64,000 bases of DNA from positions 46,476,966 through 46,540,965 of the forward strand of contig OX393576.1 in assembly GCA_947652605.1 (NCBI GenBank), written 5' to 3'. Source of the DNA: Elmis aenea (taxonomy: Eukaryota > Arthropoda > Insecta > Coleoptera > Elmidae). A program made the position numbers and the translations under genes. The stretch's first letter is position 1, and each line of letters opens with the position of its first letter. The notes beneath the pieces were generated by a model that was not told the DNA's origin, made no database searches, and saw nothing but the letters and a program-made list of their open reading frames with translations. Below, piece after piece: positions 21,992-54,430 of this stretch.

Positions 21992-23389
21992 ATTTATACC
22001 TAACGTTGATAATGAAATCAATCCAACCTCTCCAAAAGAACTGCCTTCAGTTATCTGTAAGTTTGCAACAAAAAAAAGCACCAGGATATGACCAAATATC
22101 CAACATCATCCTTAAACACTCAACAAAAAAAAAACTTCTGGCATATCTTGCAACACTGCTCAATGCCTAAGGCTAACCTACTTTCCAATAACCTGGGAAC
22201 TTGTTCATATCCTGATGTTTCCAAAACCGGGCACAAACAAGAAATGCCTAACGAGCTACAGACCAATCAGCCTGCTACCCACGATGTCAAAACTCCTAGA
22301 AAAAGTTATTCAGTCGCGACTATCTAAAGAAATGGATCGAATCAACTTGCTACCACATTTCCAGTTCGGCTTTAGAAGTTGACATTCGTCATGTTACCAA
22401 CTGCAACGAATAACTGAAATTATCGAAATTGGATATGAAAGGAAGCAATACACAACGGCGGCCTTACTTGATATCGAACAAGCTTTCGACAGGGTATGGA
22501 CAAACGGCCTCAAATATAAAATACTACTTGATGTTCCTGGTTACCTCAAAAAAATGCTGTGTTCGTTCTTAGAAAATTGCACATTCAAAGTAATAGTTCA
22601 TTCATCAATATCCCCACTCAAAAAAAACATTCAAACAGGAGTCCCACAGGGTAGCGTCTTGGGACCAACGTTATTCAACATCTATACACACGACATACCT
22701 CAAGCTCAAGCAGAACAAGCTCTTTTCGCAGATGATACAGCCCTAATCACGCAAAACGATAATTTACACCAAGCAGTGGAGCAACTGCAATTGGCAGTTA
22801 GCTCAATCGGTAGATGGCTGCAACGGTGGAACCTAACTATTAACTACCAAAAATGTGCAGCCAAAATAATTTCCCTAAGAAGATTCAAGAATCCTGCTGA
22901 AATTCAGTTGAACCAACACACAATTCAATGGAACGGAAATTCCGAATCAATTAAATACCTTGGTAGCCCCACATTGTCAATAAGTTAAACCAAGGATACA
23001 TACGACTGGCCCAAATTTTCCCACTAATCAACAGAAAATCAGCTCTTCTAAATATTAAGTGTTCTTTATTATTATATAAGGCTCTCATAAGACCGTTAGT
23101 CATGTACGCCTGCGTAGTGTGGGGTAACACATGCAAATCAAACTTAAAACATATCCAAGTCCTGCAAAATAAAGTTCTTAGAATTGCAGTCAATGCTGAG
23201 TGGTACGTAAGCAATGCTCAACTCCACAAGGAACTCGGTATTCTAACAATAACCGAATATACTAAAAAGTTAACAGTTAAGTTCCACTTCAACTTGCAGC
23301 ACTGCGAAGGTGCCCACCATTATTTGCTAGGTCGCAAAGACATTCACTCTCGCCTAAAGCGAAGACTGCCCCAAGACCTATACACGTAG
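21988..23389 (+). pseudogene. Jockey-like reverse transcriptase, frameshifted
   Basis: Motifs appear in order in shifting frames: KSTRI/APGYD-like fingers start (about 22070), LTSYRPISLLPTMSKLLEKV (about 22246), FQFGFRS (22360), LLDIEQAFDRVW (about 22465), GVPQGSVLGP (about 22639), the catalytic FADDTALI (about 22725), WNLTINYQKC (about 22828), KYLG (about 22950), then the thumb and C-terminal part with VMYACVVWGNT and VLQNKVLRIAVNAEWY up to the stop at 23387. At least three frameshifts and two stops (after FGFRS, and after the palm) make it inactive. The YADD-type aspartates are preserved. Confidence 0.88.
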
Positions 23390-40266: not shown

Positions 40267-40268
40267 TA

Positions 40269-41203
40269 CTACCTGCGTCCGAAAATATGGTATACATTAA
40301 GAAAAAAAAGTGGGCATAACAAAAGTAATACTATATTGGTCTTTTTTGTTTTTGTTACTAAATAGGTGGTTGTTAGGCAACTAATAAACAAATGGCACGC
40401 AAATAGTTTGGCATATGTCAAAAATAATTCACAGGAAAAAAAATCGCGTATTTTAGACAAATTAAGTGACACCTGCTGTTCTAACAAAATGGCGAATTTT
40501 GATCAAAATTGTGTTGAATTGAAAAGAAGAAGTTCCACATCAAAGCAACTGGCACTTAACCAGCGTAATATCTAGTATACTCTAAAAAAAAAAAAAAAAA
40601 AAAACCATAAGTCACAAGCACAAACCAATTTACGTACAACAAGATAACGCGAAACCCCATTCCTCCGATGATGATGATGAAGATATTGTAGCAGAAGGCT
40701 TTAGAGATGGCTGGTCTATTCGACTTAAATCACAACCGCCAAATAGTCCAGATTCTTATCTATTGGATCTTGGATTTTTCAATTCTATATACAACCTTAC
40801 AACATACAGCTTCACCGAATACAATCGACGAATTGATTGAATGCATACAAAATGCATTTAATGCAATAAACATTCAAACCCTTGATAATGTTTTTCTAAC
40901 ATTGCAAACTTGTCTAGAAGCAACCATGTTAGCAAAAGGAGGGAATTCCTATAAGATTCCGCACATCAATAAGGCAAAACTTCATCGTGGGGGCCATAAC
41001 AAACATTATCATGTCCCATAGAAGCTGTGGAAACAGCCACGTCTTTGTTAAATTATAACTTTTTGTATTATTCTTTGTTTTACTGGATATTTGTAACTAT
41101 TTCATAAATAAATTCATTCTAATTAATTAAAATTGTAAATGTATATCATATTTTCGGACAAGAAAAAAATCAAAATGTATACCATATTTTCGGACGGAGG
41201 GAG
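40269..41203 (+). mobile_element. Plant-type (Stowaway/DD39D-like) mariner element, decayed (935 bp)
   Basis: The right end, read inward, is CTCCCTCCGTCCGAAAATAT and the left end is CTACCTGCGTCCGAAAATAT (two mismatches), each flanked by TA. CTCCCTCCGTCC is the hallmark end of plant Stowaway MITEs and their mariner partners. The repeats extend through ATGGTATACATT. The right end is additionally duplicated (a second TATTTTCGGAC at 41147). Inside lies the C-terminal half of a transposase of the plant mariner type. Flanking sequence is continuous with ordinary insect-type repeats (a mariner starts 22 bases after it), which argues against a stray plant contig. Confidence 0.85.
40618..41021 (+). 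pseudogene. Plant-mariner-type transposase, C-terminal catalytic part
   Basis: Frame 1 (from about 40628) reads IYVQQDNAKPHSS, which holds the second catalytic Asp, then GWSIRLKSQPPNSPDSYLLD with LGFF following, which holds the third Asp. By my count 40 residues lie between the two; in plant mariners it is 39, and a run of GAT codons here may explain one extra. After one frameshift near 40790 the tail reads LTLQTCLEATMLAKGGNSYK and IPHINKAKLHRGG, the LTLQxxM...GGNxYKIPHMNK block specific to plant-type mariners. The N-terminal DNA-binding part is not convincingly visible, and a run of 21 A at about 40586 precedes it. Dead copy. Confidence 0.83.
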
Positions 41204-41225
41204 TATTTAAATTGGGGAATATATA

Positions 41226-41912
41226 CGAGGGGGTACCCAAAAATAACCGGAATAGCATTGCCGTGGGCGGAGCTTGTGTAGCACGCATTTCTGCCGCTAG
41301 GAGTGTATAGCGCAACTCATTGCCAGTTCAGTGCCACCTGTGTTGTCGACCTGGCTTGTTCTGTTCATCTGCAGTGATTGTTTTTGCTAGCGCTGTTTTG
41401 TTCTTTTTTCGTTTTTGTTTGTTCCCCCAGGTCAGACCGTCAATAAAACCTTTTATTTGGAGGTTTTAAGAAGATTACGCAACAGTATCCGTCAAAAAAG
41501 ACCCGAATTGTGGCAGACAGGAGACTGGTTCTTCCACCACGACAATGCACCTGCACACACAGCCATCTCTGTTAGACAGTTTTTGGCTAAAAATGGCATG
41601 GTTCCGCTGCCCCACGCACCTTACTCACCTGACCTGGCTCCGTGCGACTTTTTCATATTTCCACGCATGAAAAGGGGCATGAAAGGACACCGATTTGACA
41701 ACATCGAAGAGGTCAAGAAAAAAACGAGGGAGGAGCTCTCAGCCATTTCTAAAGATTTTAAAAAATGTTTCGAACAGTGGAAGCACCGGTGGGACAAATA
41801 ATGTATTAGTTGTAATGGAGAGTATTTTGAAGGGGATAACGTTGTTTTGTAAAAAATTTGATAATATGTAGCTTTAAAAAAATAATTCCGGTTATTTTTG
41901 GGTACCCCCTCG
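41226..41912 (+). mobile_element. Internally deleted mariner (687 bp) with intact ends
   Basis: Ends CGAGGGGGTACCCAAAAATA and its exact inverse TATTTTTGGGTACCCCCTCG extend to ACCGGAA, flanked by TA on both sides. An intact relative is about 1.3 kb. The DNA-binding domain and first part of the catalytic domain have been deleted. Intact ends mean it could be moved by a related transposase. Confidence 0.93.
41415..41801 (+). pseudogene. mariner transposase, C-terminal catalytic fragment
   Basis: An open frame of about 128 codons encodes VPPGQTVNKTFYLEVLRRL, WFFHHDNAPAHTAISVRQFL with the second catalytic Asp, PHAPYSPDLAPCDFF with the third Asp 34 residues later (the D34D spacing of mariner), then RMKRGMKGHRFDNIEEVKKK and FEQWKHRWDK just before the stop. 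The frame is open to its natural end apart from one short residue gap, so this part decayed little. The helix-turn-helix domain and the first Asp are gone, hence no activity. On the opposite strand a 111-codon frame is a shadow. Confidence 0.9.
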
Positions 41913-53973: not shown

Positions 53974-54070
53974 ATTCAGTTTTACCGCATTCTAACATCG
54001 CACCTCTAACATCGTAATCTCTGAAAATAAACAAATAGCTTTCAAAGACGTCATAACATAGTGTTTTTTT

Positions 54071-54430
54071 CTTTTTTTTACGACCTCTTCTGTAACTGAC
54101 TATTACTGTATAGTGTACAACGTTCCTGCATAAATAGAAGTTCCTTACGCACGGTAAACAAAAGGCACAGTTTTCTAGAATTTATCAAAGTAGGCTCACT
54201 TTTTTCTTTTTTTTACGACCTCTTCTGTAAATGACTATTACTGTATAGTGTACAACCCTCCTGCATAAATAGAAGTTCCTTACGCACGGTAAACAAAAGG
54301 CACAGTTTTCTAGAATTTATCAAAGTAGGCTCACTTCAAACCCAACTTGCATGCATAGTAAGTGGGCCCTTACACACGGCAAGCAAAAAGCACAGTTTTC
54401 TAGAAATGATTAAAGTACACTTAGTCAAAA
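54071..54430. repeat. Tandem duplication, unit about 135 bp, plus a third degenerate unit
   Basis: ACGACCTCTTCTGTAA..GACTATTACTGTATAGTG.. through GGCACAGTTTTCTAGAATTT and AAGTAGGCTCACTT occurs at 54080 and again at 54215 almost unchanged (AACTGAC against AATGAC, CGTTCC against CCCTCC). A third unit from about 54338 keeps only the TTACACACGGCAAGC / GCACAGTTTTCTAGAA part. The high identity of the first two suggests a recent duplication. Confidence 0.85.

Follow-up and report, generated by a model that had tools for sequence, protein, structure and literature searches.

In the window, the whole 64,000-nucleotide stretch of DNA analysed here, we identify a 935-bp insertion that we regard, at a probability of about 0.9, as a non-autonomous, internally deleted DD39D (Guest/PlantMar) mariner, resident in an arthropod-like genome and amplified in trans. 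We base this reading on its copies, their ends and target sites, a shared deletion, a longer relative and its position in transposase trees. The parent type would have been an element of ~1.69 kb, bounded by inverted ends of 30 bp, inserted at TA sites and encoding a transposase of ~440 residues. One copy would have lost ~759 bp, including the first catalytic Asp and most of the DNA-binding region, possibly through abortive gap repair, and this short form would then have been cut and pasted to many places with transposase supplied in trans. The cut-and-paste chemistry itself is suggested by the family and the fold.

Structure of the insertion

Excluding the TA target sites, the window copy spans 40269-41203 (935 bp) and has inverted ends of 30 bp; with TA included, the arms at 40267-40298 and 41174-41205 are 94% complementary over 32 nt. 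Read inward, the right end is exactly CTCCCTCCGTCCGAAAATATGG, and the left end is CTACCTGCGTCC, with two positions unlike the right end. The preliminary description had reported TA-adjoining ends, one differing at two positions, and its placement proves right almost to the base. The features are as follows.

40267..41205, + strand: whole insertion, a DD39D mariner shortened to 935 bp by deletion, with a TA at either end
40267..40268, no strand: TA target site, left
40269..40298, + strand: left terminal inverted repeat, CTACCTGCGTCC...
40489..40569, + strand: what is left of transposase residues 1-27 (identity to P0001, 81%)
40570..40612, + strand: A-rich internal-deletion junction, where L081 is ~759 bp longer
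40625..40801, + strand: remnant with the second and third catalytic Asp, 40 residues apart in the window copy
40643-40645, + strand: second catalytic Asp
40667..40678, + strand: four successive GAT codons, where most copies have three
40766-40768, + strand: third catalytic Asp
40794..40997, + strand: C-terminal remnant in another frame, NTIDELIE ... GGNSYKIPHINK
41133..41159, - strand: end core repeated in subterminal position; over 27 nt it is 89% complementary to the left end
41174..41203, - strand: right terminal inverted repeat, CTCCCTCCGTCC... read inward
41204..41205, no strand: TA target site, right

When P0001, the closest database protein, is searched by tblastn against the whole window (E ≤ 0.01), matches are found only at the element (best E 9e-35), and the protein from residue 299 onward aligns at 40625-41050 in more than one frame. 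This pattern indicates that the window copy is without the first catalytic Asp and most of the DNA-binding part, and that the remainder is out of frame. QQDNAKPH starts at 40637 and the same frame runs through to QPPNSPDSYLLDLGFF with no gap; GGNSYKIPHINK is also ungapped and lies in a different frame, the change falling between ~40785 and 40818. All the motifs named in the preliminary description are thus present, whereas the gaps it wrote in QPPNSPDSYLLDLGFF and GGNSYKIPHINK are absent. A Pfam scan of the two broken frames of the element gave nothing above cut-off, and in the window neither Rfam (at the gathering threshold) nor a tRNA scan gave a match. A coding function for the window copy was rejected on account of the deletion, the broken frames and the lack of a third-position excess among copies (23/42/36 differences by codon position in one 195-nt coding stretch).

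The spacing between the second and third Asp is 40 in the window copy and 39 in both L081 and the majority sequence of 40 aligned genomic copies. Among 179 database proteins fetched, 160 fit the pattern, and 146 of these have a spacing of 39. A fourth GAT codon occurs in the window copy, L003 and L030 (3/40) and is absent from the other 37, which bears out an earlier guess that the GAT run explains the extra residue. We therefore reject spacing 40 as a new class, as it amounts to one extra GAT codon.

Copies in the genome and a longer relative

Counting copies, as had been proposed in the preliminary description, shows that at least 40 places in the genome (516 Mb, 302 contigs) match the 935-bp form at E = 0 with 91-100% identity, the window's own included. 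These are the best-scoring 40 of 84 candidate places, and the 40 that were scored, so that the copy number is a lower bound biased to close copies and the uniformity of the copies is partly selected. They are spread over nine contigs, C1 to C9, of 32-73 Mb each. The end pattern, allowing up to three mismatches, has 65 + 63 = 128 matches in the genome, and the reversed control has 0 and 0. With the P0001 match and the 40 places at E = 0, these counts put the element well outside what chance would yield. Pairing the 100 listed ends gives 36 pairs (72 ends) and leaves 28 single; 34 of the 36 paired elements span 894-962 bp, with one of 1319 bp and one of 1690 bp.

All 40 copies were retrieved with flanks and aligned. 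Measured against the majority sequence, the copies differ by a median of 1.8% and the window copy by 2.4%. The right end is CTCCCTCC in the window copy and in 25/40 copies (exact 12-mer), and the left end is mostly CTACCTCC (29/40), its commonest form among the aligned copies being CTACCTCCGTCC (29/40). By a simple rule, TA flanks both ends in 31 of the 40 copies; in most of the other nine, as judged by eye, an end is damaged or the alignment does not reach it. Past the motif LGFFNSI, 29 of the 40 copies have the length of the window copy, eight have four more bases, two have eight more and one has one fewer, so the frame break is mostly, not wholly, common to the copies.

The deletion junction is common to 40/40 aligned copies, with an A-rich tract that varies in length. 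A single internal deletion shared in this way probably reflects movement in trans, and it is most simply explained if a single deleted ancestor was multiplied by transposase made elsewhere. An ungapped comparison of the 100-nt flanks revealed no alike pair among the 40 copies. Separately, we observe that L009 (on C4) and L022 (on C8) have identical 12-nt flanks on both sides, and that in L062 the left 300 bp match until, from about 1797, unrelated sequence interrupts the copy.

The 1690-bp element, L081, has ends as in the short form and TA on both sides. It holds a nearly whole transposase (P0001 residues 1-266 at 90% and 254-440 at 80% identity) with all three catalytic Asp, yet the reading frame is broken by an in-frame stop codon and by a frameshift. 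The majority sequence of the short copies aligns to L081 at 1-319 and 1079-1690 (90.6 and 90.7% identical), from which it follows that the short form is ~759 bp shorter internally. The family shows cleanly, within one genome, a longer element together with its deletion derivative in amplified form. Against our reading count the broken transposase of L081, the one longer relative among the paired elements, the partly selected uniformity of the 40 copies, and the 28 listed ends noted above that lack a partner. The 1319-bp element, L082, is a short copy enlarged by ~390 bp of inserted sequence; this insert (603-992 of L082) is bounded by inverted GGGTAGTTCACACGGTGACTTTTAAAGTC and is apparently a small element nested within.

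Placement among DD39D transposases

The C-terminal remnant was compared with 5.8 billion proteins, yielding 89 matches among 114 candidates. The top match, P0001 (441 residues), is 87% identical over 95% of the query, as against 65% identity for Hamiltosporidium and 44-52% for named plants. P0001 carries an N-terminal DUF7769 (PF24964; E 3.3e-10), a region that the window copy has lost, and its N-terminus is 90% identical to L081; going by the database relatives, we read DUF7769 as a mark of the DD39D/Guest family. The predicted structure of P0001 (mean pLDDT 84.9, pTM 0.64) retrieves the Mos1 transposase first in Foldseek (E 3.7e-12), and a search of its sequence against the PDB up to E 1 gave no Mos1 match. 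A sequence from the beetle Trypoxylus dichotomus matches 74% of the P0001 query at 62% identity, and among prokaryote genome contigs and viral contigs no relative was confirmed. Three DD39D transposases (P0109, P0127 and P0160) are labelled as coming from Cyanobacteriota and Nitrososphaerales MAGs; in the tree they lie within or close to the plant portion, and they are probably eukaryotic DNA in those bins.

Identity, motifs and fold agree with the original assignment to DD39D, the plant mariner/Stowaway family. Likenesses to DD39D/Guest (GT), alias PlantMar, are the spacing of 39 in L081 and most copies, the CTCCC ends, the TA sites, the QQDNA, QPPNSPD and LDLGFF motifs, and DUF7769 in the closest transposase; differences are the arthropod-like host and the position apart from the plant clade, together with the deletion, the missing first Asp and the spacing of 40 in the window copy. 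The available text of a 2020 survey (PMC7325037) gives PlantMar a length of 2-6 kb, whereas L081, at 1690 bp, falls below that range; we take length as typical of PlantMar and not as defining it. Plant Stowaway MITEs share the Stowaway-type CTCCCTCCGTCC end, the TA site, the non-autonomous state and the many copies of fixed length, but here the length is ~935 bp, transposase remnants are retained and the host is arthropod-like. It is safer to call the window copy a deletion derivative of a DD39D element. The DD34D mariner Mos1, the top structural match of the P0001 model, is alike in its DDD chemistry, by inference, and unlike in its spacing (34 versus 39).

Trees were rooted at midpoints, most of their rows are without a named host, and DD34D, DD37D and DD41D references are not among the rows. 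In a first tree by a quick method (101 rows, being 100 of the 179 proteins and the window copy), the element pairs with P0001 (support 94) within a 14-row set that includes four Hamiltosporidium rows (96), and one branch separates off 17/17 named plant rows (99). The groups for the AU tests were chosen after this tree had been seen. On a 62-row tree, also by the quick method, constraining the element to group with the plants lowers the log-likelihood by 90 units (p-AU 7.6e-8); the loss is 342 units (p-AU 2.3e-73) when P0001, P0002 and Hamiltosporidium are constrained along with it. A 58-row tree by a careful method, with L081 added and the Hamiltosporidium rows P0063 and P0079 dropped, recovers the plants (99/98) and the window copy with L081 and P0001 (100/96), and the window copy and L081 forced with the plants give p-AU 1.4e-5. 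The separate clade of 17/17 plant rows is common to the 101-, 62- and 58-row trees.

A further short tree covers the C-terminal region only, with few columns, for 68 hand-chosen of 291 proteins and the window copy. Its 25-row clade (96/93) includes no row from a named plant or oomycete; it is made up of the window copy, one row of Trypoxylus dichotomus, five of Hamiltosporidium and 18 whose source is not named. In the same tree 17 of 18 plant rows form one clade (99/91), and a Cuscuta row lies outside it and also away from the element. This row, P0281 (Cuscuta campestris), groups with the oomycete Albugo and one unnamed row (97/77), which may be contamination or another lineage.

These results bear on the proposal, made in the preliminary description, of a horizontal transfer from plant to insect. 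The ends and motifs are indeed of plant mariner/Stowaway type, and according to the accessible text of PMC6696609 bamboo Ppmar2 starts TACTCCCTCCGTCC, with an end given there as TACTCCCTCCGTCCCAG. However, the low identity to named plants, the separate clade of 17/17 plant rows and the rejection of the element-with-plants grouping (both p-AU values above) make it very improbable that this arthropod recently acquired the element from a flowering plant, and a sampled flowering-plant donor is rejected by the trees and AU tests. The alternative in the same description, a little-described animal lineage, fits the clustering with beetle and microsporidian rows; a shared donor other than a plant is also conceivable. 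Taken together, the trees and the rejected plant grouping place the element in an arthropod-associated branch of DD39D/Guest (PlantMar), with no recent transfer from a sampled flowering plant.

That branch could owe its arthropod-microsporidian composition to horizontal transfer between arthropods and microsporidian parasites, or from another non-plant donor, and not to descent, a proposal to which we give slightly less than even odds. Hamiltosporidium rows lie in the clade of the element in both the first and the short tree, and transposon exchange between microsporidia and animals has been argued in print (PMC4202319, from the portion available); on the other side, the roots are midpoints, hosts are not named for most rows, and the Hamiltosporidium records could contain DNA of their Daphnia host. 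This proposal concerns origin and is compatible with the deletion-derivative explanation.

The portion of PMC7325037 available to us gives PlantMar plant or oomycete hosts, confining it to a few oomycetes and the flowering plants without any later move back into other hosts, and the excerpted PMC9777934 has GT mainly in plants. A DD39D element in an animal is not new in itself, as the available text of PMC8472432 reports DD39D/GT among bees, including an incomplete 2381-bp element of Lepidotrigona ventralis hoosana with a CTCCC start. That element, compared by its description, resembles ours in its insect host, incomplete transposase and CTCCC start, and differs in length (2381 versus 935 bp). 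Host range is a finding about the DD39D family, already contradicted by these bee reports (PMC8472432, as far as its available text goes). Dozens of copies in an arthropod-like genome, and a clade shared with a beetle and microsporidia, also speak against restriction to plants and oomycetes and open the direction of the switch between plants and non-plants to testing. For a joint arthropod-microsporidian DD39D clade we found no description in the open-licence literature. A few animal and chromist hosts are reportedly listed in the main GT paper, by Wang et al. in 2021.

An arthropod-associated lineage weakens the plant-only picture of the family. It is an evenly balanced question, in our judgement, whether DD39D, instead of being a plant family, is an old eukaryotic lineage that has its own arthropod-microsporidian branch, has passed between animals and their intracellular parasites, and includes the elements of flowering plants as a single offshoot. 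If true, this would contradict the published view of a one-way switch that left the family restricted to plants and oomycetes.

Host sequence and neighbouring repeats

TTAGG is the usual telomere unit of insects and arthropods, and TCAGG is known from beetles. The start of contig C3 (L045 1-2115) consists of ~2.1 kb of TTAGG repeats passing into TCAGG, with some TCGGG; such an array was present in one of 20 contig-end stretches fetched. This array, with the animal-type mariner beside the element, points away from a plant or oomycete host. Contamination of the assembly, or a chimeric junction with plant DNA, draws on the plant-like ends and nothing else, and it is opposed by the spread of the copies over nine contigs (32-73 Mb each) with 100-nt flanks that are unlike in ungapped comparison, by the C3 array, and by an animal-type DD34D mariner remnant adjoining the element. 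We regard it as having practically no chance of being correct and reject it on the contigs and flanks; the earlier view that contamination is less likely is strengthened by the copies on many contigs and by the 128 ends against a control of 0.

The adjoining remnant, a degenerate DD34D mariner directly beside the element (window 41391-41801, + strand), matches Mos1 at E 2.1e-22 and DDE_3 at E 7.7e-5, below cut-off; its identity to P0001 is 20% over 102 residues. On C3, the telomere-like array adjoins a long GACATATGACAT-type satellite. Elsewhere in the window we observe a reverse transcriptase remnant at 22383-23389 (+ strand) in two overlapping frames, the first matching RVT_1 (E 1.4e-22) and the second without a match, and a 135-bp unit present twice, head-to-tail, with 97% matches, at 54065-54336.
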